The notes beneath the pieces are model-generated. The model searched no databases. It worked only from the letters and a program-made list of their open reading frames with translations, and was not told the DNA's origin. 48,698 nucleotides of DNA from a virus. Positions within the stretch are counted from its first letter, which is position 1, and the number at the start of each line of letters is the position of its first letter. The translations under genes were made by a program, and so were the position numbers. Below, in pieces: positions 7,043 through 29,300 of this stretch. The stretch spans positions 1-48,698 of the IMG/VR virus record IMGVR_UViG_3300037071_000430; one strand, given 5' to 3'.

Positions 7043-7266
7043 GGCTTCTCGGTCCTGATGCGTAGCGCCTCCCTGGCCTGTCGGCCTCGCTTGACTATGG
7101 CCTTCTGGACCTCGAACACGCTGCGCTTGCCACGCATCGCGTCCTGGTGCCTGGATTTGTCCCGCTTGCGGTCCCTGGCATTGGCGTGCCTGTCCGTGCT
7201 CACTAGCCTCGTCCTTTCCCTGTCCATGGCCCTGAGTCTGATGGCCCAATGCTCGGGGTCCGTCAT
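7039..7266 (-). CDS. Hypothetical basic protein, 75 aa
   Basis: The start at 7266 overlaps the glycosyltransferase stop (ATGA). The protein is extremely rich in Arg and Lys (RDRKRDKSRHQDAMRGKRS) and lacks Cys and hydrophobic segments. It may bind nucleic acid or an acidic partner. No family is recognised. Confidence 0.5.
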   Translation of the reverse strand: MTDPEHWAIRLRAMDRERTRLVSTDRHANARDRKRDKSRHQDAMRGKRSVFEVQKAIVKRGRQAREALRIRTEKP

Positions 7267-7820
7267 GGCTCGTGCCGTTTGCTGCTGGTGTGCCAAAGAT
7301 GGACGGCCTCTGGCATCGTCGTCAGCGGACGCCCTGCGCTGTCGTGGCTGAACACGTTGTGCCTGCGAGCCACGCCCAGGTCGGGCAGCGAGTCCAGGTA
7401 GTGCGCTCCCGAGACATCCACGGACCTAGCTGTGTCGGACTGGGGCTGCGCCATGATGCCGTCGATGGCGGCATCCAGCCATGGGTGCTCGGGTTCGGGG
7501 AACCACATGACGGCGCCCTCCCGCCTGCCGTCGTCCAGGGCTGCCGTGTACGGGCCGCCGACCATCAGCGTCTTTGACAGCGGGACCACATCGCAGTCCA
7601 GCCACAACCCGCCGAACCTGTACAGCGTCATGAGGCGGAAGATGTTGGAGTCGTGGCGCACGATGTCCTCGGCGCGCACCTGTTCGTAATCGATGGTGCC
7701 ATGGGCAAGCACGTCCAGCGTGGTGATGACATCCGCCCCCAGGGTCGAGCGCACGGTGGCCTCTATCCAGTCGTACCCCTCGAACTTGGGTCCGGCCCAG
7801 AACCTATGTACTGCCAACAT
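7263..7820 (-). CDS. Glycosyltransferase with DXD motif
   Basis: This 185-aa protein has the signature FRLMTLYRFGGLWLDCDVVP, with the metal and nucleotide-sugar-binding Asp75-Cys-Asp77. This is the core of the DXD-containing sugar transferases (Gly_transf_sug, OCH1-like). It is shorter than cellular relatives but retains the core up to HLWHTSSK near the end. It should transfer a sugar from a nucleotide sugar to an unknown acceptor, such as host surface glycan, phage DNA or phage protein. A strong AGGAGG site precedes the ATG. It sits among small early-type genes. Confidence 0.85.
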   Translation of the reverse strand: MLAVHRFWAGPKFEGYDWIEATVRSTLGADVITTLDVLAHGTIDYEQVRAEDIVRHDSNIFRLMTLYRFGGLWLDCDVVPLSKTLMVGGPYTAALDDGRREGAVMWFPEPEHPWLDAAIDGIMAQPQSDTARSVDVSGAHYLDSLPDLGVARRHNVFSHDSAGRPLTTMPEAVHLWHTSSKRHEP

Positions 7821-8031
7821 CGGTGCCTCCTATCCTTTCCACCGTGTAAACGGTCATGTCCAGGTCGTCCGTCATGGCCTGCGCTCGGACCCAGTGACGT
7901 TCGCACAACGGGTGCGCGAGCCGCGTCCAGACGTACTGCCGCCACAACCTCACGACGGCCGGGGCCTTGCAATACTTCGGTGCCCCATCGGGGTCCGTCT
8001 GCGCGTCGTACTGGCACTCGTCGTTAGTCAT
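7804..8031 (-). CDS. Hypothetical Cys/His-containing protein, 75 aa
   Basis: The protein contains ECQYDAQTDPDGAPKYCKAP and then PLCERHWVRA, so two or three Cys plus His could bind zinc (C-x16-C then CxxxH). It overlaps the glycosyltransferase start by 17 bases, and its own ATG overlaps the upstream stop (ATGA). I recognise no specific family. Confidence 0.55.
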   Translation of the reverse strand: MTNDECQYDAQTDPDGAPKYCKAPAVVRLWRQYVWTRLAHPLCERHWVRAQAMTDDLDMTVYTVERIGGTDVGST

Positions 8032-8315
8032 CGTCCGTCTTCATCATCCAGGTCGGCTCCGACCACGCCGTTGTCAAAGTCATCCTCGGTGTAATCGGCA
8101 TCGAGGATGTCGTTAGCATAGTCCAAGCTGCCTAGCGAACCGGGCTCAACCTCGTGCCGTGACGGGATGTAGTTTCCCCAGTAGTCCCGGTGCCCCTCGG
8201 GGCCCAGGATTGCCCGCCCGGACTCGATGTCGTCCATGCAGCCACGTCCTACGCTGCCTTCGAGCCGCCATGCCATGCCGCTGTTGATAAGCCCTTGTAC
8301 GCTAAAGTCCATCAT
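8028..8315 (-). CDS. Conserved-looking phage protein, 95 aa
   Basis: The start is the ATG at 8315, which overlaps the stop of the Cys-rich gene before it (ATGA). The N-terminal two thirds, with MAWRLEGSVGR, CMDDIESGRAILGPEG and YWGNYIPSRHEVEPGS, resembles a small protein I associate with many actinobacteriophage early regions. That association is from memory and unverified. The C terminus is very acidic (DADYTEDDFDNGVVGADLDD). The function is unknown. Confidence 0.65.
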   Translation of the reverse strand: MMDFSVQGLINSGMAWRLEGSVGRGCMDDIESGRAILGPEGHRDYWGNYIPSRHEVEPGSLGSLDYANDILDADYTEDDFDNGVVGADLDDEDGR

Positions 8316-8467
8316 CCTACCCTGCCTTCCCTGATGCACGTCCTACAAACCGGGGGCGCGGAGCATTTGCAGCTACACGCTACCTGGGCCGGTCGGCCGC
8401 ACGGACAGCGCGAGCCGATGGGCGGGACGATGCCGCCTCGGGTCTTGTCTCCGGGCTTGGCTATCAT
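8312..8467 (-). CDS. Small cysteine-rich protein, 51 aa
   Basis: This short frame has ATG at 8467 overlapping the upstream stop and TGA at 8312-8314 overlapping the downstream ATG, so both ends show the 4-base coupling seen across this operon. The protein has seven Cys in about 25 residues (RCPCGRPA, ACSCKCS, VCRTC), consistent with one or two zinc knuckles. It fills an otherwise 150-base hole in a gapless operon. No family is named. Confidence 0.6.
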   Translation of the reverse strand: MIAKPGDKTRGGIVPPIGSRCPCGRPAQVACSCKCSAPPVCRTCIREGRVG

Positions 8468-8853
8468 GTGCACACCACCCTTCCGTTGTTGTCTACCGTG
8501 ATGCCGTCATGGAACGGCTGGATGAGCATGCCGCGTGCCATGAGCCAGCGATGCCCGCGGTGCGACACAACCGCGACCGGCGAGTACGCGTTGACCCGGC
8601 TCCATGTCGTCCGGGTCCACCAGCCACCGGTCCTGAGCGTCGTGGTGCCGTCGCGATGGTACGTCACCACCGGAGTGTAATGCAGGATGACCTGGATGTC
8701 ATCGTCGTGGTACGCGTCGCGCATCAGGTACGTGTTGTTGCCTACCTTGCGCGAAGTACGGTTGCGTTCGGTGCGACCGGCCGACAGGTATCGGTCGGCG
8801 GTGGCCCAGTCGATGATATGGGCCGGTGGGAAGTACCCTGCCGAGAATGCCAT
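8464..8853 (-). CDS. Hypothetical protein, 129 aa
   Basis: An AAAGGAG site precedes the ATG at 8853. The protein is beta-rich, with segments such as DDIQVILHYTPVVTYHRDGT and TLRTGGWWTRTTWSRVNAY that suggest antiparallel strands. It has a basic Arg-rich linker (GRTERNRTSRK). It looks like a small globular early protein. I recall similar sequences in phages but cannot name a function. Confidence 0.6.
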   Translation of the reverse strand: MAFSAGYFPPAHIIDWATADRYLSAGRTERNRTSRKVGNNTYLMRDAYHDDDIQVILHYTPVVTYHRDGTTTLRTGGWWTRTTWSRVNAYSPVAVVSHRGHRWLMARGMLIQPFHDGITVDNNGRVVCT

Positions 8854-8870
8854 CGTTTATACGCTCCTTT

Positions 8871-9467
8871 CTAGAACCCTAGGGTTAGCTGGCGCGAGCG
8901 GATGGCTAGCCATACCGTCGCTTGGACATGATGTACTGGCGCGTCGAGCGCCATGGCGGCCGATGCATATGCATAGGCTACGTCAGGGTAGGCTCGCGGC
9001 GACACTTGGGAATATGTCAGAAGCGTAGCGGCGCGCACGGCCCATGTGTCAATGACTGCCGTGCCTTCGGTGCCAGCGGTCAGGATGGCGGTGTAGAACG
9101 CGCGCGTCTTCGGCCCGCGGAGCACGTCGAGCACGTTCGACCCTGCTAGCACGGCATCGGCCTTCCGGCAGCTACCGCCGAGCGCGCCGCTGGCGCGACC
9201 ATCCGATAGCGCACGTCGTGCCAGTTCGAGGTTGCGCGACCATTCGACTTGCGGCGACAGCGCCGCGACCACGCCGGCAGCCACGCTCAGCGGTCGGCGC
9301 GAGTCGCGCGCCATGCTGGCGCATAGCTCATGCGCTGTCGCGTACCATGCCCGACCTTCGGCGCGTACCGTGTCGTCGGCGGTGCCGTACCATGCAGTGA
9401 CGTTAGCGGTCATGGCAGCCACGGACACGCCGGCTCGGCGCGTCAGCGCGCGCCCGCTCGTGCTCAC
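8871..9467 (-). CDS. Conserved phage protein, tentatively HhH-glycosylase-like
   Basis: From the GTG at 9467, overlapping the upstream stop (GTGA), this is 198 aa. ATGs at 9470 and 9413 are alternatives. The core has AAGVVAALSPQVEWSRNLEL, then GPKTRAFYTAILTAGTEG and VIDTWAVRAA, a pattern that recalls helix-hairpin-helix DNA glycosylases (a helical bundle, a GPKTRAF turn, and an acidic Asp after a hydrophobic strand). That fold is my inference and could be wrong. The codon choice is rich in CGCG-type words and less GC3-biased than the virion genes. Confidence 0.55.
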   Translation of the reverse strand: MSTSGRALTRRAGVSVAAMTANVTAWYGTADDTVRAEGRAWYATAHELCASMARDSRRPLSVAAGVVAALSPQVEWSRNLELARRALSDGRASGALGGSCRKADAVLAGSNVLDVLRGPKTRAFYTAILTAGTEGTAVIDTWAVRAATLLTYSQVSPRAYPDVAYAYASAAMALDAPVHHVQATVWLAIRSRQLTLGF

Positions 9468-9775
9468 CATCCGCTTACCGTGCCAAACTCTAACTCCAGT
9501 GCGGCGAGGATGTCTCGCGCGGCGCTGTAGCGCGTGGTGTTGTCGGCAGGTGCGTAGCGTAGGGCGTCCTCGATAATCTCCAGCGCGATGCCTTCGGGAT
9601 ACGGCTCGAATATCCATCCGCCGCACGTATCGCAGGACAGTCCTCGGTTATCCTCGTCCATGTGGGAGAACAACGCGGTAAGGTCAGACTCGTCCGTGAT
9701 GCGGCCGTTTAAGCAATCCGCATGGACGGCGAACCCGTCGCCGATGTAACCGTAAACCCGAGTGTCTACCATCAT
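9464..9775 (-). CDS. Hypothetical Cys-containing protein, 103 aa
   Basis: The ATG at 9775 overlaps the upstream stop (ATGA). The protein contains HADCLNGR and then LSCDTCGGWIFEP, giving H/C-x-C and CxxC elements that could bind one zinc. A helical C terminus (GIALEIIEDALRYAP, YSAARDILAALELEF) follows. No family is recognised. Confidence 0.55.
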   Translation of the reverse strand: MMVDTRVYGYIGDGFAVHADCLNGRITDESDLTALFSHMDEDNRGLSCDTCGGWIFEPYPEGIALEIIEDALRYAPADNTTRYSAARDILAALELEFGTVSGW

Positions 9776-9981
9776 GGGAGTCGGTCTCCTGACTGTAGCG
9801 TTTCGACGTGGACGGTATCTTCCCAAGTATAGCTCGCGCGCAATGGCGGCCCATCCGTGATGTAGCGCGCGATTAGGGCATCCTCGAACGTTCGCGCGTC
9901 ACGTGCGGTCAGGAACGGCCCGAAGTATTCGGGGAGGTCGTCGCCAGAGTCGGAAACGACTATGTAAGCGTAGTCGTCCAT
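9772..9981 (-). CDS. Hypothetical protein, 69 aa
   Basis: This small acidic protein begins MDDYAYIVVSDSGDDLPEYFG and has a central helix (DARTFEDALIARYI). A leader motif AGAAAGCGAGTA lies just upstream of its ATG and is shared with the gene at 9985-10350. The function is unknown. Confidence 0.5.
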   Translation of the reverse strand: MDDYAYIVVSDSGDDLPEYFGPFLTARDARTFEDALIARYITDGPPLRASYTWEDTVHVETLQSGDRLP

Positions 9982-9984
9982 GGG

Positions 9985-10350
9985 TTACTCGCTTTCTCGC
10001 ACGGTTAGCGTGCGCTTGTCCGTGATGTGATACACCGCAAGCTCGCCACGTTCGGCAGCGAGCCTCAGCGCATCGTCCGTGGACTCGATCAGTTCGATAG
10101 CGTCGATGTACAGCCTCCCATCGTCTATCCATGTCCCGATGATGCGGGCGCCGCTAGTCAGTAGGTCCAAGTAGGCATTGCCGAACGCTAGCCTCCGATG
10201 GTATCCGTCGCCGGACGCGTCCAGCACGATGCCGGGGAGGCTACCGCCCACGGCCCACGGTCCCGATGTGACGGGCTCCAACGTCAACGCGTCGAACGTC
10301 CCGCCACCATTCCGGAGGGTATCGTCTAGTGCGTCTGATATGGTGCGCAT
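9985..10350 (-). CDS. Hypothetical protein, 121 aa
   Basis: The ATG at 10350 is preceded by the AGAAAGCGAGTA motif that also precedes the next gene, which supports this start over upstream in-frame ones. The protein is mixed alpha/beta, with GSLPGIVLDASGDGYHRRLA and ARIIGTWIDDGRLYIDAIEL forming likely strands. No Cys or membrane segment is seen. The family is unrecognised. Confidence 0.55.
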   Translation of the reverse strand: MRTISDALDDTLRNGGGTFDALTLEPVTSGPWAVGGSLPGIVLDASGDGYHRRLAFGNAYLDLLTSGARIIGTWIDDGRLYIDAIELIESTDDALRLAAERGELAVYHITDKRTLTVRESE

Positions 10351-10375
10351 CGTAGGGTACTCGCTTTCTGTCCGT

Positions 10376-10936
10376 TTAAACAGACGGATACAGGAAATGC
10401 CCGAATGGGCAGGATGGCAAGCCGTAGTCAATCCATGTCCGGGTCGTCCGGACGGTGTAACCGCATTCGCATTGCAGCTTGAGCATGCGCGTCGTCTGGC
10501 GAGGGATGCTGGCGTCGGCGATGCCGGCATGGTCCAGCGGCCCTAGACGTTCGGACAGCGCACGTAACGTAGTCGCCAGCTCGGGCGATGCGCTAGTGGC
10601 GGTCCACGGCTTGATTAGTCCACACTTAGCTGCCAGTGAGCTAAACGGCTTGCGATGTCCGGACCCTACGGGCACGGACGCATGGACTAGCTCGTGTAGC
10701 AGCACGTCCAGCATCCTAACCGGGTCGGTGAGCACTGGCGAGATGAACACCGCGTGCCTGCCGTCAGCGACCGCCGAAGGGCTCCAGCATTGGCCTATCG
10801 CACGCGCGCGGCCATGGGAACCGCGAGGGAACCCGATTGACACGCGCACGCCGGCCGGAACGGTCGCGCCATTCGGCGCGAGGATGTCCGTTGACAGCGC
10901 ATCGGCGGCCGACAGCAGCCAGTCCTCGCGTGTCAT
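10376..10936 (-). CDS. SprT-like zinc metalloprotease
   Basis: This 186-aa protein has LLHELVHASVPVGSGHRKPF, with HExxH at His81-Glu82-His85 and a third ligand candidate His94. That matches the SprT/Spartan-type site. The C terminus carries a zinc ribbon, with LQCECGYTVRTTR and LPSCPFGHFL. Cellular relatives cleave DNA-protein crosslinks. Phage relatives are common in actinobacteriophages, but their substrate is not established as far as I know. It overlaps the upstream gene by ATGA. After the stop there is a 25-base gap containing a GTTTAAAC site. Confidence 0.85.
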   Translation of the reverse strand: MTREDWLLSAADALSTDILAPNGATVPAGVRVSIGFPRGSHGRARAIGQCWSPSAVADGRHAVFISPVLTDPVRMLDVLLHELVHASVPVGSGHRKPFSSLAAKCGLIKPWTATSASPELATTLRALSERLGPLDHAGIADASIPRQTTRMLKLQCECGYTVRTTRTWIDYGLPSCPFGHFLYPSV

Positions 10937-11154
10937 GGCCGGCCACCGTACGTTGTCCGGTGACTTCCCATGGCACGTAGCAGTCCGCTGCGGGATGCCG
11001 CGGTACCGCGCACGCGCTCGGCATCTAGGTCCAGCCTAGACATGTCGATGTACGGTGACTTGCGGCCGCGCGTAGGCTTTCCTGAGACTGGAGGCCGGAA
11101 CCCTGCGGCCTGTTCGCGCGCCATGGCGCGCTGTCGAACGTAGTCGTCCATCAT
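10933..11154 (-). CDS. Hypothetical protein, 73 aa
   Basis: Two adjacent ATGs (11154, 11151) follow a GCACGGGAGTACAG leader also found before the gene at 11717. The protein is basic, with Arg/Pro-rich GFRPPVSGKPTRGRKSPY, and lacks Cys. It may be nucleic-acid binding. A perfect 12-bp hairpin (11205-11234) separates it from the gene upstream, so it may have its own promoter or be partly insulated. Confidence 0.5.
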   Translation of the reverse strand: MMDDYVRQRAMAREQAAGFRPPVSGKPTRGRKSPYIDMSRLDLDAERVRGTAASRSGLLRAMGSHRTTYGGRP

Positions 11155-11204
11155 CGTGCTGTACTCCCGTGCTGTCCAGCTAGGCTAGTCTGGCCTAGTC
11201 ACTC

Positions 11205-11234
11205 TGGCGCCTGATCGGCGAGGATCAGGCGCCA
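11205..11234 (-). terminator. Perfect 12-bp hairpin, probable terminator
   Basis: The arm at 11205-11216 (TGGCGCCTGATC) pairs exactly with 11223-11234 across a 6-base loop GGCGAG. It lies 12 bases past the stop of the leftward gene 11246-11572. No U-tract follows on either strand, as is common for terminators in high-GC hosts. It may also be a partial terminator that sets the level of downstream genes. Confidence 0.5.
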
Positions 11235-11245
11235 TGATGACAAGT

Positions 11246-11572
11246 CTAGACGTTCCGGATAATGGCGATGGCACGCTCCGCGGCGGACTCGAACGCATCG
11301 GCCGATGCCGGCGACACGGCTTGCACGAGCGCGCGAGACTCCCAAAGCACGTTTCCTAGGTATTGGCACACGTCATCCCGAGTGTAGTCTGTCGGAGGGT
11401 AGTGCACCGATGCCATGCCTGCGTTGCTGGCGATGTTGAGCATGGTCCGGACTAGCCTACGCTCGCGCGGAGTCAAGTCGGTGTCAGCGTAGCCTTTGTC
11501 CACGTTGTCGGAGTAGGTCCGGACGATGTCGCGATAGGTCATCCGGATTGACGGTCGTTCGGTCGTTCCCAT
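11246..11572 (-). CDS. Hypothetical protein, 108 aa
   Basis: The ATG at 11572 is chosen because GGAAGG lies 9 bases upstream; an ATG at 11581 touches that site and is less likely. The protein is helical, with TPRERRLVRTMLNIASNAGM and a C-terminal ADAFESAAERAIAIIRNV. No motif is recognised. Synonymous codon use is less GC3-rich than in the virion genes. Confidence 0.55.
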   Translation of the reverse strand: MGTTERPSIRMTYRDIVRTYSDNVDKGYADTDLTPRERRLVRTMLNIASNAGMASVHYPPTDYTRDDVCQYLGNVLWESRALVQAVSPASADAFESAAERAIAIIRNV

Positions 11573-11573
11573 G

Positions 11574-11717
11574 TCAGGCATCCTTCCGTGTCTGTGCAAG
11601 TCGCTCTGTTCGGAACGCGGACCATTCGGAACGGTACGCCTCCGTCCATTCCTCGCGAGTGATGAGGCCGCGTCGGCGGTAATCGTCTAGGCGCGCGAGC
11701 CGTTCGGTGCGTGTCAT
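11574..11717 (-). CDS. SHOCT-like small protein, 47 aa; first gene of the leftward unit
   Basis: From the ATG at 11717 the protein is only 47 aa, nearly all two short helices: RLARLDDYRRRGLITREEW and EAYRSEWSAFRTERLAQTRK. The pattern L-x2-L-x3-G-x-I/L-T-x-E-E resembles SHOCT-type modules, which are usually protein-interaction tails. The frame upstream to 11879 looks non-coding. A GCACGGGAGTACAG leader precedes it. It is the first gene transcribed from the divergent region. Confidence 0.5.
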   Translation of the reverse strand: MTRTERLARLDDYRRRGLITREEWTEAYRSEWSAFRTERLAQTRKDA

Positions 11718-11756
11718 GGGTGCCTGTACTCCCGTGCGTTGAGTGGAACAGTCACC

Positions 11757-11785
11757 ACAATGAGACTTGCGCCAGAAGTTGTCAA
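11757..11785 (-). promoter_or_regulatory. Leftward promoter candidate
   Basis: On the minus strand a perfect -35 TTGACA (11785-11780) is followed after 17 bases by CATTGT (11762-11757), a weak -10 with 3 of 6 consensus bases. Transcription would begin about 33 bases before the ATG at 11717, with GGGAG in the leader. It is placed correctly to drive the leftward operon. Confidence 0.45.
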
Positions 11786-11926
11786 GCATATCCCCATAGG
11801 GAACTAGGGAATAGGCAAGGGTAGGCGACGAGGCAGGGTGAGGGAAGAGGCACAGGCATTCTCTCGACCATTGTCTCACCAGTGAGCCTCAGACACCCCT
11901 ACCCTGTAAGACTAACCTACGTTAGT

Positions 11927-11959
11927 AGTACACATGGTGTGAATAGTACGCATGGTGTG
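11927..11959. repeat. Two-copy direct repeat, 18-bp period
   Basis: AGTACACATGGTGTG (11927-11941) is repeated as AGTACGCATGGTGTG (11945-11959), one mismatch in 15, with an 18-bp period. The near two-helical-turn spacing suits a dimeric DNA-binding protein or an iteron. No copy was noticed elsewhere in the window. Confidence 0.7.
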
Positions 11960-12005
11960 GAGTGATGACACGCTGCGAACCTTCCGATGACGGCTGGAGG
12001 CGGGT

Positions 12006-12041
12006 GGGGTAGCAGGGGTTTGGGGGGTACGTCTGGGGGGG
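12006..12041 (+). other. Canonical G-quadruplex motif
   Basis: Four runs of at least four G occur on the plus strand, at 12006-12009, 12015-12018, 12022-12027 and 12035-12041, separated by loops of 5, 3 and 7 bases. This satisfies the standard G4 rule with four tetrads. It lies within the divergent control region, just before a C-rich segment. Confidence 0.7.
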
Positions 12042-12214
12042 AAGAGATACCCTCAAACCACAAGCACAACCCAGGTCCAGACCCTCCCTTGGCACCTCGT
12101 GCCGCTAGCTCTGAAAGCCCTTCTGGAGGCTCAAACTACCCCTAAGTACCCCTTTTCGACCTATTTTCGGGATTTCCCGTGCATTTTTTGTCACGGATCG
12201 CGTTTTGACCTGCA

Positions 12215-12226
12215 CTCTATATAGAG
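12215..12226. promoter_or_regulatory. AT-rich 12-bp palindrome upstream of the rightward virion genes
   Basis: CTCTATATAGAG is a perfect palindrome. TTGACC lies just upstream (12205-12210), but at 7 bases it is too close to TATATA to be a normal -35 partner. The site could be a -10 region or an operator for the rightward transcript. Confidence 0.4.
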
Positions 12227-12248
12227 GAGTCGTATTGCTGTCTGATGA

Positions 12249-12289
12249 AGACCGTCCTTCGAGCCCTGGGGGGCTCAAGGACTGGGTCT
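12249..12289 (+). other. Long leader hairpin before the rightward genes
   Basis: Three helices stack. AGACC (12249-12253) pairs with GGTCT (12285-12289), GTCCTT (12254-12259) with AAGGAC (12277-12282), and GAGCCC (12261-12266) with GGGCTC (12271-12276). They are broken only by a bulged C and a 2-base bulge, with loop TGGG. No U-tract follows, so it may be an attenuator, an mRNA 5' stabiliser or a processing site. Confidence 0.6.
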
Positions 12290-12360
12290 GATGGCGGCAC
12301 GGAACGGGGAGAGATGGGGACAAAGGGCTCGCTTAAGGCTAGGTGTGCCCTGGAGGGAAG

Positions 12361-15913: not shown

Positions 15914-16335
15914 TCTGGGGAACCTCGGTCAGACGCACGACGGATTGGCCGACAGGCCCGTTCAACGCGACCGTCCCGTTCGACTCCGTGGAATACGATG
16001 ATGACGGACTGTGGTCGCCATCGTCCCCCACCATCCTGGGCCCCATACCGAAGGGTACGCCTGGGCGCAGGGGCGTCTTTTGGGCTTCCGCGATCTGGAC
16101 CGGGGACACCACCTACGCCGAACTCAAGATCTTTCGCAACGGTGACGCGAACAACCCCATCGCCGTGCAACAGCAGGGCAGCAACCCATCCAACTCCGGA
16201 GTGACGCTCGTGAGCCGACCGATCCCCTTGCAGGCAGGTGATCGCTTCGAGTTATGCGCCAGGTCTGGCGATCCGGCCCTCGTCCTGGGCGTGATGGACT
16301 ACTCGGTTAGGTTCGCAGTGGAGATCAGGGGCTGA
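15910..16335 (+). CDS. Jelly-roll-like adsorption protein, 141 aa
   Basis: A TTG start overlapping the previous stop (TTGA) is chosen; no ATG or GTG lies nearby in frame. The protein is all-beta in character. PFNATVPFDSVEYDDDGLW, GVFWASAIWTG, AELKIFRNGD and AGDRFELCARSGDP follow the strand pattern of C1q/TNF-type jelly rolls used in phage receptor-binding tips. The family is inferred by pattern, not by a conserved active site. Confidence 0.6.
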   Translation: MIWGTSVRRTTDWPTGPFNATVPFDSVEYDDDGLWSPSSPTILGPIPKGTPGRRGVFWASAIWTGDTTYAELKIFRNGDANNPIAVQQQGSNPSNSGVTLVSRPIPLQAGDRFELCARSGDPALVLGVMDYSVRFAVEIRG

Positions 16336-17228
16336 TGCCCAACAACCGCGGCATAGCCGTCCACGTCCAGGACCCTGGAGAGGTCTGGGCGACCGTCACC
16401 GCGTACGTCGAGGGCGACCGCATCCTCGTGACGTGGAACGACCTCCAGCTAGTGGTCACTCCCAGCGAGGCCGGCAACTCCGGTGCCGTGGAGCCTGTCT
16501 GGGAGGACTCGGACGGGTTCATCTTCCCGGATGACGACTTCGACTGGTGGCTGATCGGCGTCCTGGGGGCGGTGGAACTGTCGCAGCACTCGTCCGATAA
16601 CGTCCAGGGCGGGGCCGGCATCATCCAGGACGGCTCCACGATCACGGTCGGGGGCGACAACGTGGGGCTTCGTGCGGTCGAGATGGTGACGATCGCCACC
16701 CCTGACCTCACGGTGACGGTGGACGGCTTCGACGTGACGGCCTCGGACCACTTCGAGTCCAGCATCAAGCTCGACGTGCCGGGGATCGGGTTCCCGGCCA
16801 CCCAGGCCCCAGATGCCGGGGCGAACGTCCTGGACGACTACGAGGAGAACTCGTTCACCCCAGGCATGAGCTTCGGCGGTGGCACCACCGGCATCACCTA
16901 CGGCACGCAGGTGGGCAGATACACCAAGATCGGCAACCTGGTGTCCTGCCAGGGCCAGGTCATCCTGACCAGCAACGGCTCCAGCACGGGCGATGCCCGC
17001 ATCACGGGGTTGCCGTTCGCCTCGCAGAACACCGCGGGCCTGCTCCAGTCGGCCAGTGTCTCCAAGTACGCCAACCTCACCCTGGTGACGCAGCCCCTCG
17101 GGTGGGTCGAGCCCAACACCACGGCGATCGTGCTGCACCAGGAGGGCGTGGCCGCGTCCGTGGCGATCACCGAGGCCAACGTCGCGGACACCGCAGTCAT
17201 CGCGTTCTCAGTAGCTTACATGGTCTAG
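16335..17228 (+). CDS. Tail fibre/spike with FTPxxxFGG C-terminal domain, 297 aa
   Basis: The C-terminal 130 residues contain YEENSFTPGMSFGGGTTGI and GRYTKIGNLVSCQGQVIL, followed by STGDARITGLPF. That combination is a recurrent C-terminal beta-domain of phage tail fibres. The N-terminal part has WVT-type and GGAGIIQDGSTITVGGDNVG beta repeats, which suggest attachment to the virion or a shaft. It overlaps the previous gene by TGATG. Confidence 0.8.
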   Translation: MPNNRGIAVHVQDPGEVWATVTAYVEGDRILVTWNDLQLVVTPSEAGNSGAVEPVWEDSDGFIFPDDDFDWWLIGVLGAVELSQHSSDNVQGGAGIIQDGSTITVGGDNVGLRAVEMVTIATPDLTVTVDGFDVTASDHFESSIKLDVPGIGFPATQAPDAGANVLDDYEENSFTPGMSFGGGTTGITYGTQVGRYTKIGNLVSCQGQVILTSNGSSTGDARITGLPFASQNTAGLLQSASVSKYANLTLVTQPLGWVEPNTTAIVLHQEGVAASVAITEANVADTAVIAFSVAYMV

Positions 17229-17236
17229 GGGGAAGC

Positions 17237-17338
17237 ATGGGCGTCGTACCGGTAGACGTGGACATCGAGATCACGTTCCAGGTCGATGTGGACATCGACA
17301 TCCATTCCGGCGTGACCGTGACCAGCGGGTCTGCCTGA
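17237..17338 (+). CDS. Mini-protein A with alternating Asp/hydrophobic residues, 33 aa
   Basis: A GGGGGA site precedes the ATG. The protein contains VDVDIEITFQ followed by VDVDIDIHSG, a two-fold internal repeat of strictly alternating acidic and hydrophobic residues, which predicts amphipathic beta-strands. It is followed 3 bases later by a near-copy (17342-17449). Both lie inside the adsorption cassette. The conserved paired pattern argues against chance. The function is unknown; a calcium-binding or capping beta-module is a guess. Confidence 0.6.
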   Translation: MGVVPVDVDIEITFQVDVDIDIHSGVTVTSGSA

Positions 17339-17341
17339 CCC

Positions 17342-17449
17342 ATGGCCAGCGTGGTCGTGCCCATGGACATCGACATCGAGATCACATGGTACGCGGAGGT
17401 TGACATCGACATCCACACCGGTACCGAGGAGGAGGAGGAGGGAGGCTAG
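17342..17449 (+). CDS. Mini-protein B, paralogue of the preceding mini-protein, 35 aa
   Basis: The ATG comes 3 bases after the stop of mini-protein A. The core MDIDIEITWYAEVDIDIHTG aligns with VDVDIEITFQ-VDVDIDIHSG of its neighbour, and the tail is an acidic EEEEEGG. The DNA encoding the tail (GGAGGAGGAGG) also acts as the ribosome-binding site of the next gene, whose ATG follows the stop immediately. This dual use is a compact design. Confidence 0.6.
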   Translation: MASVVVPMDIDIEITWYAEVDIDIHTGTEEEEEGG

Positions 17450-17731
17450 ATGGCAGCCAACCAGAGCTTCGTCATCGGCGACTCCGTGGCCATCCGCTGC
17501 ACCATCCGCGTGGCCGACGTGCTGACCAGCCCCGGCTCCACCACGTTCCTCGTGGAGCGCCCGGACGGCACGGAGAGCAACCCATCGACGGTGAGCACCT
17601 CCACCGGCCAGCGGGACTGCGTGTACGTGCCCACCCAGGCCGGGTACCACCGGGTGAAGATCACCGGCACTAGCCCAGCGCCGTTCGTCCGCGAACGGAC
17701 GTTCTACGTGGCATCCTCGGCCATCTCGTGA
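17450..17731 (+). CDS. Ig-like virion-associated protein, 93 aa
   Basis: This small beta-rich protein has strands SFVIGDSVAIRCTIRV, TTFLVERPDGT and CVYVPTQAGYHRVKITG. The Y-x-P-x-x-A-G-x-H/Y-R-V pattern is typical of Ig-like domains that decorate phage tails. It starts directly after mini-protein B with a very strong GGAGG upstream. Its stop overlaps the next GTG. Confidence 0.6.
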   Translation: MAANQSFVIGDSVAIRCTIRVADVLTSPGSTTFLVERPDGTESNPSTVSTSTGQRDCVYVPTQAGYHRVKITGTSPAPFVRERTFYVASSAIS

Positions 17732-18273
17732 CCCTGGACCCGGCCGTCAGGGACAACCGCGTCGGCAGGTTCTCCACGAGCCCAGGCGAACAGCCTGGGA
17801 ACCAGCTATGGAAGAAGCCCTTGACCAAGGACCCGCTGAACCGCGGGTTCGTGATCCGCAACCTCAAGCCGTACAAGTCCCTGCGGAAGTTCGCCAGCCC
17901 CAAGGGCCTGCGCAAGCTCCGGGGCATGGACTTCCAGCGGTTCGAGAACATGGCGGCCCGTGCCGTCCTCCAGGACGCCGGGGTGAAGCGCCGGAAGCTC
18001 GACACCAAGATCAACGGCTTCGGGCAGCCGGCCCTCCAGAGGGCCAGGTCGAAGCTGTCCCAGGGGTACGACCGCAGGTTCCTGGGCCAGGAGGGCCCGG
18101 ATGTCAAGTCCATCCAGAACACCCGCACCCGCCAGGCCGCCAAGGAGATCATCAACGTGCGCAGGAACCGGGCCATCACCCGGACGAACCCGTACAAGGG
18201 CAAGGGCTACGACATCATGCGGGGCCATCGCAAGCTCCCTAGCGCCAAGCCCGTAGGGGTCCAGGCGACCTGA
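17728..18273 (+). CDS. Hypothetical basic protein, 181 aa
   Basis: A GTG start overlaps the Ig-like gene (GTGA). The protein is strongly basic across its length, with PYKSLRKFASPKGLRKLRG and NTRTRQAAKEIINVRRNRAI. It has no Cys, no membrane span and no recognised motif. It lies just before a helix-turn-helix protein that may be the small terminase, so a DNA-binding packaging or virion role is possible. Confidence 0.55.
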   Translation: MTLDPAVRDNRVGRFSTSPGEQPGNQLWKKPLTKDPLNRGFVIRNLKPYKSLRKFASPKGLRKLRGMDFQRFENMAARAVLQDAGVKRRKLDTKINGFGQPALQRARSKLSQGYDRRFLGQEGPDVKSIQNTRTRQAAKEIINVRRNRAITRTNPYKGKGYDIMRGHRKLPSAKPVGVQAT

Positions 18274-20837: not shown

Positions 20838-22640
20838 TTGACCGCAGACTTCTCTCCCATTGGCGAGGCCGTGGAGGTCGCAGTCGATGCTGCGATCTCC
20901 GAGGCCGTCCAACCACTCCAGGCCCAGATCGATGCGATCGATCCGGACATCGCGGCGGCCCAGGCCGCGATCGCCGCGCTCCAGGCCCAAGCCGCAGTCG
21001 CAGCCTCTGATGCCGAACTCTCGGCCGTGAACGCCGCGCTCCTCGTGCAGATCGCTGATCTGGATGCCCGCCTGGATGCCCTGGAGGGCGTGCCGCCCCC
21101 GCCCCCGCCACCTCCGCCCCCACCGCCACCGCCACCTCCCCCGCCAGGCCCGATCATCACGAACCTGACGGTCTTGAACATCACCCAGACCGGTGCGACG
21201 GTGAGCTTCTCCCTGGACGCCCCTGGCCCTGCCAGGAGCTTCTATCGGGTGGCCGGCACCAGCGGCTGGGTCGCAGGGCCGAACGAGACATCTTCCGATT
21301 TTGCGAACCACGTCCAGCAACTGAGCGGCCTGACGGCCGGCGTGACCTACGACGTTCGCGTCACGGCCGGGGAGACCGAGGCTTTCGGGCCAGCGTTCAC
21401 CACGCTCTCGGCCCCACCCCCACCGCCTCCCGGCATGGTGTATGACGACGTGACCCTCCCCACGTCGTGGGTCCATGCAGGAACCACTTACGCGATCGAC
21501 CACACCGGGGTCAACGACTCCACGCCGGGTGTGAACTTCTGGATCGATGACCAGGCGGATGGCGCCGATGCCACCCATCACAAGCGGCTGATCTTCCCAT
21601 CAACGGCCACCTTGAAGACCAACACCGGTCTGTGCATCTCCAACAAGAGCCATACCACGCTGTGGGGGCACTCCCTCACTTCGAGTGCATGGATCAGGGG
21701 CGATGCCACGGCCTACCAGGATGTCGGATGCCGGATCAACCCGGCATGGGCGTCGGTGTCACCACATCATAGCGCGTTCATCGTGGGAGCGAGATACAAC
21801 TCCTTCGAGAACGTGTCGTTCACCGGCAACCCCTGCGACGACATCGTCATCCGCGGCTTCGACATCCGCGGCGCCAACCCGAGCCCTGGCATCTACCCTG
21901 GTGGCGGCCACGAGAACGCCAACGCCCTGGAATACAGCGTCGCGACGAACGTCGAGTTCGCCTACAACCTGGTTCGTGGCATGGGTGGCGACCTCGTCCG
22001 CTTCCGTCAGGGAACGACCGGGCATGTCCACCACAACTACTGCCTGAACACCGGGCGGATGGGCTGCACGGCGGTCATCAACAACAAGTCCAACGTGATG
22101 ATCCGCTCGGACCATGTCTTCGAGGACAACACCATCGACCGCGCAGGATACTGGGGCATCGATGTCGAGCCCGAGGACGAGTCGAACACCAGCCTTCGAC
22201 GGTTCGATGGCCTGGTGGCCCGCAACAACCGATGGGGCACGTTCGCCTCCACTAGCGTCGGTGGTGGCTTCGCCGTCATCGGCGGCACGGCCAATCCCAC
22301 CACTAGGCACATCGCTGATGTCGAGGTGTCCGGCAACGTCATCGACGGTTACGGCTTCGGCTCCTACGCGGGCAACAAGCGCGACCTGTGGGTGCTCGTC
22401 GCGCATGTCACCAACCTGTCGGGGACGCCAGTCGGCTCCGATCCGCGCCCTCAGAACGTCACCATCCGCGACAACGTGGTCACACACGGCGCCGCGTACT
22501 CCGTGAGCGGCTATCCAAGCCCGATCACGGCGCGCTACACCGACACCCTCGTCGTCACCGGTAATGACGCGAACTTCGGGGGTGCCGACTGGACGAACCT
22601 CACTGGTTGCACCAGCGTCATCGAGAACACCAACGTCTAG
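20838..22640 (+). CDS. Tailspike: coiled coil, polyproline hinge, FN3-like domain, beta-helix
   Basis: The TTG start gives 600 aa. Residues about 1-85 form an Ala-rich coiled coil. Residues 86-103 are 18 consecutive prolines. Residues about 106-190 form a fibronectin-III-like domain (ITNLTVLNITQTGATVSFSL, then LTAGVTYDVRVTA). A second six-proline run lies near 193-198. From about 200 to the end is a right-handed beta-helix typical of pectate-lyase-fold spikes (NVEFAYNLVRGMGGDLVRFR, DIVIRGFDIRGAN, DVEVSGNVIDGYG). It probably binds or cleaves a surface polysaccharide. I cannot identify catalytic residues. Confidence 0.8.
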   Translation: MTADFSPIGEAVEVAVDAAISEAVQPLQAQIDAIDPDIAAAQAAIAALQAQAAVAASDAELSAVNAALLVQIADLDARLDALEGVPPPPPPPPPPPPPPPPPPGPIITNLTVLNITQTGATVSFSLDAPGPARSFYRVAGTSGWVAGPNETSSDFANHVQQLSGLTAGVTYDVRVTAGETEAFGPAFTTLSAPPPPPPGMVYDDVTLPTSWVHAGTTYAIDHTGVNDSTPGVNFWIDDQADGADATHHKRLIFPSTATLKTNTGLCISNKSHTTLWGHSLTSSAWIRGDATAYQDVGCRINPAWASVSPHHSAFIVGARYNSFENVSFTGNPCDDIVIRGFDIRGANPSPGIYPGGGHENANALEYSVATNVEFAYNLVRGMGGDLVRFRQGTTGHVHHNYCLNTGRMGCTAVINNKSNVMIRSDHVFEDNTIDRAGYWGIDVEPEDESNTSLRRFDGLVARNNRWGTFASTSVGGGFAVIGGTANPTTRHIADVEVSGNVIDGYGFGSYAGNKRDLWVLVAHVTNLSGTPVGSDPRPQNVTIRDNVVTHGAAYSVSGYPSPITARYTDTLVVTGNDANFGGADWTNLTGCTSVIENTNV

Positions 22641-22649
22641 GCCATAGCA

Positions 22650-22916
22650 ATGAGCAGGATGGGAAACTTCACCGGGCCATCGGAACAGTACGGCGTGCCG
22701 CTGAGCTTCATCCACCCGAAGGACAACGACTTCGCCAAGGCCAAGTTCAATCCCATCCTGCTCGATCCGCGCTGGAAACTCACCGACAAGCAACGCAGGG
22801 AACTGCAACAGAAGGCCGACGATCTAGCCGGCCTGATGGGATACGGGAGAGACAAGTTCAGTGGCAAACCCGAAGCCCCAAAGCGAGGCGGCCGAGCTTC
22901 TCAGGCAAGGCGCTGA
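22650..22916 (+). CDS. Hypothetical protein, 88 aa
   Basis: This is a small basic protein with a PLSFIHPKDNDFAKAKFNPI segment, then a helix (LTDKQRRELQQKADDLAGLM) and a Lys/Arg-rich tail. It overlaps the large terminase start by 56 bases. It could be a terminase accessory or small subunit-like protein, given its position immediately upstream, but no HTH is evident. Confidence 0.5.
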   Translation: MSRMGNFTGPSEQYGVPLSFIHPKDNDFAKAKFNPILLDPRWKLTDKQRRELQQKADDLAGLMGYGRDKFSGKPEAPKRGGRASQARR

Positions 22917-24369
22917 CTTCCGGGTCTTCTGCGAGGACATCCTCGGGGTCAGGCTGAACCTGGCGCAGCAGCGCATCGCCAGGGTGATGCAGGTCAACGA
23001 CCGTCGCGACTGGGGGTTCAAGGAACTCGTGGTCGTGGCGGCCAACCAGATCGGCAAGACGCTGATCCAGGCGTGCGTCATCCTGTGGGCCTGTCTGTAC
23101 AAGATCGGCGTTGACCCCAAGGACATGGCCGCCTGGGGCACCTCGCCGTACCTGTGGCTCCACCTCGGGCCCGTCCAGCAGCAGGCGTACCACGCCTGGA
23201 AGGACGCCTGCCTCCTGATCCGCGGCGAGCACCCCGCCCAGGGCGACCGCTGCAAGCTCCCCCAGGGGCTGGTGCAGCCGATCAAGGTCGAGAACTACTA
23301 CGACGGCCTGGGGTTCTTCAACGGGGCCCAGGCGATGTTCCGGACCAGCGAGCACAAGGCCGAGGCCGTCCTCGGGTACCGCGCAGCCGGCATCAGCGTC
23401 GATGAGGCAGCGTTCGTGGACTACCTCACGAGCGTCAAGAACGAGGTCTTGATGCTCAGGCTCATCGCCTCTGGCGGCCCGCTGATGATGTTCAGCACCC
23501 CTGACGGCATGAACGACTTCTTCGACCAGATGGAGGCCATCAGGGTCGCTGGCGAGGAGATCGAGGACATGGTCTGGCGTGCCGACTCGGCAGTCCTGAC
23601 CTGGGCCGTCATCACCGACAACCTGGGGTACGGGCTCGACCAGGCCGAGATCGAGCGCATGGAGCGCACCCTGGACCCGGCCACCAAGGAGCAGCAACTC
23701 AGGGGCTCGTTCCTCGAACCCCTGGAGGCGTTCTTCGTGCCGCAGGCCCCGATCCTGTCGGTGTTCCGGGACCTCCCCTCCGAAGTCCTGCCGGTCCCCG
23801 GCCACCAATACGCCGAGTTCTGGGACCTGTCGATCAGTTCGGACCCAACGGTCTGCATCGTGCTGGACGTGACCAGGAAGCCCTGGACCGGCGTGTACCT
23901 CGGGTACTGGGCCAAGCCGCTCCCCGTGGAGGCCCTCGTTGGCGAGATGCACCGGGTCCACGGGATGTACAACAACCACTACGACCGCAACGTCCTGAGC
24001 CTGCCCTCCAGGGCAGTCCTCGGGTTCGACGCCACGAGCATGGGCGGGGCCGTGATGCGGCAGCTACTGGGGCCCATCAACCCCAAGCGGCCCATCAACA
24101 TGGCCGGCGCCCCGGCGAAGAAGGTCATGGCCCTGACGAACCTGCGGGACCGCCTGACCAAGGGCGAGATCGCGCTACCGGAGTCATGGCGCGTGGTCCG
24201 GCAGGAACTCCTGAACTACCGATTGAAGGACGACAAGATCCGCCAGGACACGGTGATGGCGCTGATGGGCGCAGAGATGGTGGCCACGTCGATGACGATG
24301 GGCCAGTCACAGGTGCCCGTACATCCGGAGGCCCGGATCACGCAGAGGAGACAGCTTAGATGGCGATGA
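22861..24369 (+). CDS. terL: Large terminase subunit
   Basis: This 502-aa protein has the ATPase plus nuclease plan. The Walker A variant VAANQIGKT is at residues 59-67, and Walker B ISVDEAA has Asp181 and Glu182. The C-terminal RNase H-like nuclease has likely acidic residues Asp322 (EFWDLS), Asp390 (LGFDATS) and Asp463 (RQDTVMALMG). It cuts and pumps phage DNA into proheads through the portal encoded next. A GTG start is used. The P-loop NQIGKT, rather than GxGKT/S, is common in TerL. Confidence 0.92.
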   Translation: MANPKPQSEAAELLRQGADFRVFCEDILGVRLNLAQQRIARVMQVNDRRDWGFKELVVVAANQIGKTLIQACVILWACLYKIGVDPKDMAAWGTSPYLWLHLGPVQQQAYHAWKDACLLIRGEHPAQGDRCKLPQGLVQPIKVENYYDGLGFFNGAQAMFRTSEHKAEAVLGYRAAGISVDEAAFVDYLTSVKNEVLMLRLIASGGPLMMFSTPDGMNDFFDQMEAIRVAGEEIEDMVWRADSAVLTWAVITDNLGYGLDQAEIERMERTLDPATKEQQLRGSFLEPLEAFFVPQAPILSVFRDLPSEVLPVPGHQYAEFWDLSISSDPTVCIVLDVTRKPWTGVYLGYWAKPLPVEALVGEMHRVHGMYNNHYDRNVLSLPSRAVLGFDATSMGGAVMRQLLGPINPKRPINMAGAPAKKVMALTNLRDRLTKGEIALPESWRVVRQELLNYRLKDDKIRQDTVMALMGAEMVATSMTMGQSQVPVHPEARITQRRQLRWR

Positions 24370-26303
24370 CGCAAGACGAAAGGCTCCTGCTGGACGCCGT
24401 CGCCGACTCCGTGCCCGCGGTGCAGGCCCAGGCACGGGCACGATGGTCGAGCGGCGAGAGCTACCAGTCGCGCGTCGTCAGCAAGTACCGCAAGCTCCAT
24501 CACTACTACAACCCGTTCGACGGCGACCACTGGCCAGAGGACAAGTCCCTGCGCCCAGGCAAGATCCACACAACGAGCAACCTGTGCAAGATGGCCGTGG
24601 ACGTGGACGCCAGGCTCCAGAGCATCCCGCCCAGGTTCACGATCCCCGTGGCCACCCTCGGCCCGGAGCAACGCAAGCGCGCCGAGGGCGCCGAGGCCCT
24701 GCTCCTGCAATGGCTGGACCTGTCGGGGTTCGAGGTGTGGGCGCACACGCTGTGCCAGGTCAAGTCGATGTACGGCAAGGGCATCCTCAAGCCGTACTGG
24801 GACGACAGGTTGAAGCGCGGCGACGTGTCCGTCGTGGAGAACCCGGCCAACCTGCGACTGGGCTGGGGGTCCTCGGATTACACCCGCATCGACTGGGCGC
24901 TGTACCAGTACGCGCTTTCCCACATCGAAGTCATGAACCGCTGGCCAGGGGTCCGCATCGAGGGCCAGGGCACGCAAGTCCCGCACCTGTACCTTGACGG
25001 CGGGGATCACAACGACCCGTTGAACCAGCGCGACGACGACTTCCGGGCGTTCTACCGGGAGCACTCGGACTACGAGCGCACCCAGGTCAACGTCTGGGAC
25101 TACTGGTACAAGAAGTCCGACGACAAGGTCTGCAACGCCATCCTCATCAACGGCATCATCATCGACGGGCCGCACGAGCACGACGAGCTTGCCGACATCC
25201 CGTACATCGTGATCGAGCAGGACCACGAGCCAGGCAGCCCGGAGGGCGTGTCCACGATCGAGCCGATCCTGGACCTCCAGGACGAGTTCAACCGGCTCCT
25301 GAGCCACGGCCTCCAGCACATCGCCGACGACGTTGACCCGGCGTGGTACCTGTCCGGCCCCAGCGCCGACACCGTGCCGGTGGGCATCGTGCCCAAGGCA
25401 GGCGAGGTCACGGGCGTGGGCGAGAACGTCCCCGGCGCCTGGCCGAAGTCCGTCAACACCTTCCCGATCAACGAGATGATGCAGGAGCTTTGGAACGAGT
25501 TCCACAGGCTGACCGGGCTTCCGGAGATCCTGTTCGGGCAGACCCCCGGCGCAGACACCTCCGGGCGTGCCATCGCCATCCAGGTCGAGGCCGCCTCGAA
25601 CCGCCTAGACCCCAGAAGGCGTCGGCTGTACAACGGCTTGAAGGAACTCCTGGTGTTCTGGACGATCATGGCCGAGAAGAAGAACCCCCAGATCTCCGTG
25701 GGCACGGACCCGGAGACCGGCGCCGAGCGCACGGCTGGCGTGGGGGACCTCGTCAAGGGGTTTTACTCCTGGAAGATCATCGCCCCCGAGATCACGCCAC
25801 GCGACAGCGCCGAGGTCACGCAGAACGAGATCAACAAGATCAACGCCAAGCTGTCCAGCCTGCGGTCGTCCATGAACCAGATCGGCGTAGAGGCTCCCGA
25901 GGCCGAACTCGCGATCATCGCGCAGGAGCAGTCCAACGTCAGCCTGAACCCAGCGGCCGTGCAAGCCCAGGTCAGCGTGCAGACGATCGTGGCCCAGCTT
26001 GAGCAGCTTCGGATGCAGAACGCCCAGATGGCCCAGCAGCTCGGCCAACTGACCTCCGGGGCCCCCACGCCACCGGGCAGCATCCTGGACTCGAACGCCG
26101 GCCAGGCCGCGCTCGCCCAGCAGCAGGCCCAGGCCCAGCCCACGGCGTTCGAGGACCAGAACCAACCCATGACCCAGGCCGGCACACCGCCGCCACAGGG
26201 CGCCCCAGGCCCTGGCGGGCCGGCCCAGTTGACGGCACTGACGAGACAGGGCGAGGCCCTCCAGCAGATCGGCTTCAACGCCTTCGGAGGCCAGAGTGGC
26301 TAA
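24360..26303 (+). CDS. Portal protein
   Basis: This 647-aa protein follows terL with a 10-base overlap. Portal-type features include the N-terminal YRKLHHYYNPFDGDHWP, RPGKIHTTSNLCKMAVDVDA and a central LDLQDEFNRLLSHGLQHI stem-like helix. The conserved LTGLPEILFGQTPGADTSGRA is also present. The C-terminal 100 residues are Gln/Pro/Ala-rich (QALAQQQAQAQP-type), probably a flexible barrel or tail. It forms the dodecameric DNA channel and head-tail docking point. Position and length agree. Confidence 0.88.
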   Translation: MAMTQDERLLLDAVADSVPAVQAQARARWSSGESYQSRVVSKYRKLHHYYNPFDGDHWPEDKSLRPGKIHTTSNLCKMAVDVDARLQSIPPRFTIPVATLGPEQRKRAEGAEALLLQWLDLSGFEVWAHTLCQVKSMYGKGILKPYWDDRLKRGDVSVVENPANLRLGWGSSDYTRIDWALYQYALSHIEVMNRWPGVRIEGQGTQVPHLYLDGGDHNDPLNQRDDDFRAFYREHSDYERTQVNVWDYWYKKSDDKVCNAILINGIIIDGPHEHDELADIPYIVIEQDHEPGSPEGVSTIEPILDLQDEFNRLLSHGLQHIADDVDPAWYLSGPSADTVPVGIVPKAGEVTGVGENVPGAWPKSVNTFPINEMMQELWNEFHRLTGLPEILFGQTPGADTSGRAIAIQVEAASNRLDPRRRRLYNGLKELLVFWTIMAEKKNPQISVGTDPETGAERTAGVGDLVKGFYSWKIIAPEITPRDSAEVTQNEINKINAKLSSLRSSMNQIGVEAPEAELAIIAQEQSNVSLNPAAVQAQVSVQTIVAQLEQLRMQNAQMAQQLGQLTSGAPTPPGSILDSNAGQAALAQQQAQAQPTAFEDQNQPMTQAGTPPPQGAPGPGGPAQLTALTRQGEALQQIGFNAFGGQSG

Positions 26304-29300
26304 CCGGTTCTCCACGGGGAACGACTACTCCTCCACGTTCCAGAACCTGTGGGAGAGCAACTTCGCCGCCATGCAGGCCAGCGCCCAGCGCATCGACGCG
26401 CAGCGCGAGGCGGACCTGGCGGCGCGCGACAGCCTGGTGTTCGCCAAGTGGCAGGAAGGCAAGCTGTCCGGCAACGAACTGATGGCGTACATCAACTCCA
26501 GGATGCGCCAGACGGGGTATGACAAATCCCAGCAGGCCAAGTGGCGCGAGGCCGCCATCACCTACGGCACGCAGATCGCCGACGACCAGGCCGAGGCCCA
26601 GTACGCCCAGACCGGCAACATCTCCGCGCTGATCGGGCACTACGCCTCGCGGCTGGCGCAGGCCAAGAAGGGCACCCCGGAGTACCTCGAACTCGCGCAG
26701 CGGGTCAAGACCCTGACCGAGCAGCGCGACGCCGACAGCCTGCGCAAGCAGGCCAAGAAGATCTCCCGCGCGATCGAGCGGGGCGACGCCAAGACATCGG
26801 ACCTCATCGCGTTCTACCGGCAGCAACTCGGCAGCCTGCCGAGGAACTCGCCCCTGCGCGAACAGGTCCAGGACACGCTCAGCGAACTGCGCAGCGCGCA
26901 GCACCAGGAGCAGTTCTCGATCGCGATGCAGAAGATCGACACCGCCCTGGCGGCCGGCGCCATCTCCCCGATGGTCGCGTCGGCCCAGAAGTCCGCGGTC
27001 CTCGTGGAGTTCGACATCGCAGCCAGGGACCCCCTGGGGTTCATCCAGTGGCAGGAGCAGGTGCGCCAGCTACGTGCCACCCCCGACCCCACCGAGATCG
27101 CGAAGCTTGAGTTCGACCTGGCGGCCGGCAACATCACCGAGGCCCAGTACGCCGACGCCATCGACGCGTTCGCCAACCGCATCGCGCCGTTCGACCAGGC
27201 TGCCGCATGGCAGCTTCGGATCGAGGCCGAGAAGATCGTGGGGGCGTCCAGGCTGCCGAACCCAGGCGCCCTCGGCCTGCCTGGCGGCCCCAGCGGGTCA
27301 ACCGGGTACTCGGGCACGATCGAGGTCGTCAGGAACCTGGCCGGCAACTCCATCAGGCACATCACCCAGATGGACGGCAGCGGGTACTCCGACAGCAACT
27401 GCACGATGGCGGCCGGGGCGATGCTCGCGCACGCGATGGGCTACAGGGGCCTGACCGGCGCCGACCTCCGCTGGCTGTCCGGCGTGACCTCGAACGCCAC
27501 CAACATCCAGCAACTCCAGGGCGCCCTCGAACAGGTCGGCGTGGAGGGCACGAAACTCCGGTTCGCGCACAGCATCGCGTTCGAGGCGTTCAAGCAGCGC
27601 GTCGCCAACGGCGCCCCCGCCGTGCTGTCCGGCTGGCTGGGGTTCATCCCGGCCTCGCTGAACACCGCTGGCATCGCCGCGGGGCACGGCATGTTCGTGG
27701 CCGGGTACGATCCCAAGCGCAAGGCGTTCCTGATGCTCGACCCCGCGAAGTCCAGCGACCAGGGGACCTGGTGGCCCGAGGACATCGTGGAGAACTTCGG
27801 CTGGAACTCCGAGCGGTTCGGGGACGCGCTGTTCGCGCCGAAGGGCACGATCACCCCAGGCACCCTCCAGCGGTCCAAGGGCAAGGTCGTCCATGTGTCC
27901 GTGAACGCCCCCCCGGTGCGGCCGGGGACGCCGGCTGGCGCTGGCGGGCAGTTCGACCCAGGCCCGGACGTGACCGGCAAGATCCAGAAGGCCGAGCGGC
28001 AGGCGCAGGCCGCCGAGGACCGCAGGCTGCGGCGCAGGCTCGCTGACGCCGGCCTGGAACCAGGGCCCGAACTCGACTCCGTGCAGGAGGTCGAGGCCGA
28101 ACTCGCACGACGCGAGCAGGCGTACATGCAACTCGACGCCCAGATCGAGGAGTGGGCCAGGCTGTACTCCGAGGACGGCGAGCCCGTCCAACGGGTGGCC
28201 ATCGGCGGTTCCAGCGAGACCCTGAGCCGCGACGACATCGGGCAGATGCAGGCCGAACTCCTGCGGATGCTCGACGGCCAGGAACTGCTGTTCGGCGCCA
28301 TGGAAGACACCGATGGCGTGGCCAGGATGCGCAAGACCAAGGCCGAGGTCGTGACGACCGGCGTGGGCCTGAACTCGATCGAGGCCCAGGTGGGCATCGG
28401 CCGGCTGGAGCGCGAGGCCAACGCCATCCTGGGCGACATCCCGAGGATGACCGACCCCAACCAGGTCGCCAAGGCCCTGAACGACCTGGGCGGCGTCATG
28501 GAGCAGCTTGGCGCGGTCGAGGACGCCGGGTTCCTGGGACCCATCCGCGAGGACATCCGGACAAACGACCAGACCGAGGTCGAGGCCCAGCAGGACGAGA
28601 TCAAGACAGGTGTAAACGACGAGATCCAGGCCCAACAGGGGTACTACGCGCAAGTCCTGGCGGTCGTCAGCAACCCCGGCATGACCCGCGAGGAGCGCGT
28701 GGACGCGATCTTCCAGATCAGCGAGGCCGCCAACGTGTCCCTGCCCAGCGGCTGGCCGGACGACAAGATCGACCCCACCAGCGGCAGCCCGCAAGGTCGC
28801 CTGGCGGCCGAGGCCATGCAGCGGTACGACGAGATCAACCTGCTCAAGACCGAGGACGAATACGGCAACCCCATGGGCGAGGCCATGATCGTGAACGGCG
28901 AGATGATCGTCGTGCCCACGAAGTTCGCGCCCAGAACCGACCCCAACACCGGAGAGGAGATCCCCCGCCGAGCCCCGGACCTGAGCTACCTGGACCCGAA
29001 GGTCGTGGCGACCCTACAGGCGCGCGGGTTCCCAGGCGGGCAGGGCCTGCCCATCGTGGTGATGCCTGGCTCCAACGGCGAGACCACGCACATGCGCGTC
29101 CTGCCGGACTTCATCCCGTATGCCGGCGTGGACTACCTCGTGTGGCGGAAGTTCTCTACCGAGAAGGAGAGATCTGACATCCTGGCCGGCCTGCCAGACG
29201 ATCTCAGAAGCCAGTATTCCGAGGGCATCCCACTGAGCGACGAGACCCTCGAACACCCGCACTTCGCCACGGCCGGCGCGATCCAGCAGGCAATCCGGGA

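Follow-up and report, generated by a model that had tools for sequence, protein, structure and literature searches.

A tandem pair of orphan mini-genes in a phage tail-fibre block may encode single amphipathic anionic beta-strands

Introduction

Peptides designed to alternate Asp with hydrophobic residues form beta-sheets in a calcium-sensitive manner (PMC9078708). Acidic/hydrophobic stretches also occur in a phage fibre: a 692-aa collagen-type protein (IMGVR_UViG_3300050821_007174, positions 4926-7004, minus strand; hereafter L046) has three strand-like stretches of this kind at its N-terminus, preceding its Gly-X-Y repeats. In addition, the structural operons of phages contain orphan small genes, which encode fewer than 50 aa, lie between structural genes, and have no database family.

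Here, we describe two consecutive mini-genes that share features with each of these systems. Like the designed amphiphilic anionic beta-sheet peptides, the mini-gene products have a strict Asp/hydrophobic alternation that begins with a Pro cap, a net negative charge, and the length of one strand. The designed peptides, however, are synthetic and contain Phe where the mini-gene peptides have Val/Ile, and the two are not homologous. Assembly and a calcium response have been measured for the designed peptides, whereas for the mini-gene peptides we infer them. The N-terminus of the L046 fibre has strands (D-I-D-V-E-I and I-D-V-E-I-T) spaced as in the mini-genes, but its alternation is broken by Pro and Cys and it lies within a chain that continues into Gly-X-Y repeats. 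The mini-genes instead stand alone, each closed by a stop codon ahead of the gene that follows, and the collagen-type gene of the same genome (14041-14751) contains no such alternating segment. The Gly-rich GGxGxDxUx nonapeptide repeats of RTX-type calcium beta-rolls are absent from both peptide sequences. The mini-genes match the orphan small genes of structural operons in size, position, and lack of a family; they differ in having two paralogues, which permit a test of selection, and in a sequence that indicates one simple fold class.

Results

Genomic context of the mini-genes. The window analyzed here is a viral record of 48.7 kb (IMGVR_UViG_3300037071_000430, positions 1 to 48,698) with 66% G+C and no tRNA genes. 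Replication genes (DnaB-like helicase, primase) lie at its left and are followed by a fibre block. Next come the genes for a terminase (22861-24369) and a portal, then two giant genes and the gene for the major capsid protein (36709-37647). The fibre block spans about 12.3-22.6 kb and contains both mini-genes. No gene was called over some 0.8 kb (11543-12360) between the minus-strand calls (6169-11542) and the plus-strand block starting at 12361; this stretch, which has short repeats at 11796-11881, is a possible divergent control region. Elsewhere in the block, 20838-22640 encodes a probable tail spike with a coiled-coil-like N-terminus and a beta-helix-like C-terminal part. This protein also contains an uninterrupted run of 18 prolines, followed by an Fn3-like domain (a weak match, below cut-off) and a second proline run; such a poly-proline linker is unusual. 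Neither of the giant genes between portal and capsid (26296-30405, 1369 aa; 30405-36101, 1898 aa) matches a PHROG family at E ≤ 0.01.

This phage has almost no kin in the searched collections. A tblastn search of 50,697 phage records with its terminase gave no match, nor did IMG/VR contain one, and its capsid relatives are at most 32% identical (80 aligned, among the matches listed). The fibre gene upstream of the mini-genes leads to one relative, which shares a domain only, and no relatives were found through the gene starting at 17728. The capsid relatives at about 30% identity (among the matches listed) contain no credible mini-gene copy, a result that weighs little at such a distance.

The mini-genes are very probably genuine coding genes. 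Mini-gene 1 (17237-17338; 33 aa, MGVVPVDVDIEITFQVDVDIDIHSGVTVTSGSA) and mini-gene 2 (17342-17449; 35 aa, MASVVVPMDIDIEITWYAEVDIDIHTGTEEEEEGG) both lie on the plus strand as intact open reading frames. A codon-score gene caller trained on five long ORFs picked each of them independently (21 and 27 bits, respectively). Their codon log-odds (0.55 and 0.70 per codon) compare with 0.48-0.60 for neighboring and known genes of the window. The remaining two forward frames score below -1, so that codon usage at the locus is compatible with this forward frame only. A degenerate DNA pattern built on the paired halves has two matches in the window, whereas 100 shuffles contained none.

Immediately upstream lies a fibre-type gene (16335-17228, plus strand; 297 aa; phrog_17970, 5e-15, function unknown). 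The C-terminal domain of its product is common to cyanophage fibre and hypothetical proteins, some of which are annotated as tail fibres. Downstream is a gene for an Ig-like protein (17450-17731, plus strand; 93 aa), which matches phrog_17896 (E 0.0014) and, weakly, Filamin (E 0.0036, short of the curated cut-off). This gene is followed by one encoding a very basic protein (17728-18273, plus strand; 181 aa, pI 11.6, charge about +29) that has no PHROG or Pfam match. The original prediction of two consecutive genes of 33 and 35 codons, set between a fibre gene and an Ig-like gene, is thus upheld.

The translation signals of the three small genes differ in strength. The ribosome-binding site of mini-gene 1 (AGGGGG, 17227-17232, plus strand) overlaps the stop of the fibre gene and is strong (-9.0 kcal/mol; the 5th percentile of the background is -7.8 kcal/mol). 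That of mini-gene 2 is weak (-4.3 kcal/mol). A small hairpin (GGGTC-TGCCT-GACCC, 17327-17341, plus strand) contains the stop of mini-gene 1 (17336-17338) and abuts the ATG of mini-gene 2, which starts 3 nt past that stop. Given this weak site and the position of its start, mini-gene 2 is probably translationally coupled to mini-gene 1, depending on it through termination and reinitiation. As had been predicted, the Ig-like gene draws its ribosome-binding site from the tail codons of mini-gene 2: the codons for EEEEEGG (17426-17445, plus strand), with their GAG run, reach -10.6 kcal/mol, well beyond the same background percentile.

The two copies arose by tandem duplication and appear to be under selection. 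Mini-genes 1 and 2 contain a 68-nt direct repeat (17243-17310 and 17354-17421, both plus strand) that is 75% identical, with a start-to-start spacing of 111 nt. Across the 23 aligned codons, third positions account for 12 of the 18 base differences. The NG86 estimates between the copies are dN 0.21 and dS 0.95, corresponding to a dN/dS of about 0.22. Residues are identical at 16 of 23 positions (Monte Carlo P = 0.005 when the same changes are placed at random), and at 22 of 23 both copies have a residue of one class, whether hydrophobic, acidic, or other (Monte Carlo P = 0.001). This third-position bias, low dN/dS, and conservation of class suggest that the protein, and specifically its alternation, has been kept. 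Thus, the alternating pattern appears to have been maintained by purifying selection since the duplication, as judged from one pair of copies, the selection evidence being confined to this pair because homologues were found nowhere. Retention of the pattern also suggests that the mini-genes are real and in use.

Each mini-gene encodes one continuous alternation of acidic and hydrophobic residues. The alternation extends unbroken over 18 residues in both peptides (VDVDIEITFQVDVDIDIH in mini-gene 1, 17252-17305; MDIDIEITWYAEVDIDIH in mini-gene 2, 17363-17416; both plus strand). In each case, it begins directly after a proline and ends at the His that precedes Ser/Thr-Gly. Across the six frames of the window, no acidic/hydrophobic alternation is longer than these two; the next longest covers 13 residues, and shuffling the residues of each gene rarely reaches 18 (P ≤ 5e-5). 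Both peptides therefore show the unbroken hydrophobic/acidic-polar alternation, at strand length, of the amphiphilic anionic beta-sheet class, in agreement with the proposal of an amphipathic strand with an acidic face. The claim of two internal repeats per gene, and hence four modules, was overstated, since the alternation is continuous within each gene. We have dropped it in favor of one strand per gene in two paralogues. The peptides have net charges of about -6 (mini-gene 1) and about -11 (mini-gene 2).

Structure prediction points in the same direction, though with low confidence. In an AlphaFold model of the chain read through both stops (pLDDT 49), residues 7-24 and 43-60 form single 18-residue strands, where pLDDT is about 40. 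A model of mini-gene 2 alone (pLDDT 72, pTM 0.20) has no assigned secondary structure, and a fold search with it returned no match. These models are suggestive at best of a single-strand structure for each peptide.

The peptides belong to no described family, as originally proposed: neither has a match in PHROG (E ≤ 1) or in Pfam, NCBIfam, and PDB sequences (E ≤ 10). Searching 50,697 phage records with each peptide by tblastn (E ≤ 10) returned zero matches, and both mini-genes read through as one query found no relative. In a local control with the low-complexity filter on, each paralogue recovers its twin at 35-38 bits, and the filter masks only the tail of mini-gene 2 and not the peptide core. 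The negative tblastn result is therefore meaningful for copies roughly as similar to the mini-genes as the twins are to one another. A weak profile match (11.9 bits over 13 residues, in the record designated G024) was rejected, as inspection revealed no such peptide. Literature searches on phage small-gene surveys turned up nothing specific to this peptide.

Pattern scans, which overlook copies with altered spacing or residues because they demand an exact pattern, gave a similar picture. The paired-half pattern occurs in 106 IMG/VR stretches, mainly DVDVDV/MDMDMD low complexity or acidic parts of longer proteins. The first-half patterns occur in 1 and 53 IMG/VR stretches, none of which is a comparable mini-gene, and the 15 frames found among 84,980 species genomes are all unrelated. 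L046 is the only fibre look-alike among the 106 stretches. Its DIDVEIFQSPCIDVEITHPDMVIEIG, at the N-terminus of the collagen-type fibre, has the same spacing and is non-repetitive, and may be a chance match.

Discussion

We tentatively favor, at somewhat less than even confidence, the reading that these are real, tandem-duplicated mini-genes in a podovirus-like tail-fibre block, whose products are amphipathic anionic beta-strands that act by edge pairing. Each product would essentially be one Pro-capped, 18-residue amphipathic beta-strand, with Asp/Glu on one face and Val/Ile/Trp/Phe on the other. A lone strand of this type would probably be unstable, and might pair edge to edge with a further copy of itself, with the product of the other mini-gene, or with the beta-rich fibre and Ig-like proteins encoded in the block. 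Pairing could bury the hydrophobic face and leave a ladder of carboxylates to hold divalent cations or a basic partner, so that the peptide would staple the virion or aid its assembly. The net charges of the two peptides count against self-assembly in the absence of counter-ions. Beyond the amphipathic strand itself, we infer the pairing, the binding of cations or a partner, and the staple role from the sequence and its surroundings; the mini-genes would probably function in tail-fibre assembly.

The acidic peptides might alternatively bind and neutralize the basic product of 17728-18273 until its assembly. This protein is a possible charge partner, being strongly positive and encoded two genes downstream of the pair in the same block. 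Charge masking would not require a strict alternation, let alone one retained at nearly every aligned position, and other neighbors in the block are also acidic, so we regard this as unlikely. A different origin is suggested by the DIDVEIFQSPCIDVEITHPDMVIEIG segment, which is the sole non-repetitive, same-spacing match in IMG/VR that we judged to be fibre-related. The strand may once have stood N-terminal to a fibre domain, collagen-like or otherwise, and its separated genes could now act in trans at the base of the fibre or represent a decaying remnant. We consider this quite unlikely: the argument depends on a single short match, possibly due to chance, the upstream fibre gene is in a different frame from the mini-genes, and the purifying selection and good translation signals argue against decay.

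Mini-gene 1, mini-gene 2, and the Ig-like gene are all read in the same frame, with TGA-CCC and TAG as their sole separators, so that at both junctions a same-frame ORF lies behind a single stop. If these stops are leaky, readthrough would add one or both strands N-terminal to the Ig-like protein in a minority long form. The RNA phage Q-beta makes a readthrough coat protein that offers a parallel. Same-frame arrangements are rare among the tight gene pairs of this genome (4 of 32, including both of these junctions), and mini-gene 2 lacks a strong ribosome site. Set against this, a shared frame at two junctions has a chance probability of about 1 in 9, mini-gene 1 and the Ig-like gene each have a strong ribosome site, and the window, having no tRNA gene, supplies no suppressor tRNA. 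That the Ig-like gene has a ribosome site to itself, and that tRNA genes are absent, favors separate starts, and readthrough is improbable. It is highly improbable that the locus is not usefully protein-coding and consists of low-complexity GACATC/GAG repeats that are open by chance. Short runs do occur within it (CATCGA x4.5 and GAG x5.3), and the reverse strand is partly open across it, but the third-position changes, codon scores in a single forward frame, strong ribosome site, and independent gene calls all argue for coding. There is also no sign of a structured RNA; given a fold z of -0.81 and the absence of an Rfam match, we reject the reading as an RNA element.

The mini-genes are thus apparently an orphan, tandem pair of microprotein genes under selection, for which paired amphipathic strands remain our preferred reading. 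It is possible, if rather doubtful, that they represent a new family of virion microproteins, "beta-staples" that each consist of one free, amphipathic anionic strand. Encoded by tandem duplicates, these would complete or cross-link fibre and Ig sheets, or would assemble with divalent cations. Twin copies provide an inbuilt test of selection that most orphan small genes lack. A gene for little more than a single strand would be close to the smallest functional protein that can be read straight from sequence. If the family is real, beta-staple microproteins would be the natural counterpart of designed Asp/hydrophobic peptides, and a peptide located in the virion, or assembled by cations, would provide a natural and genetically tractable example of designed beta-sheet peptides.
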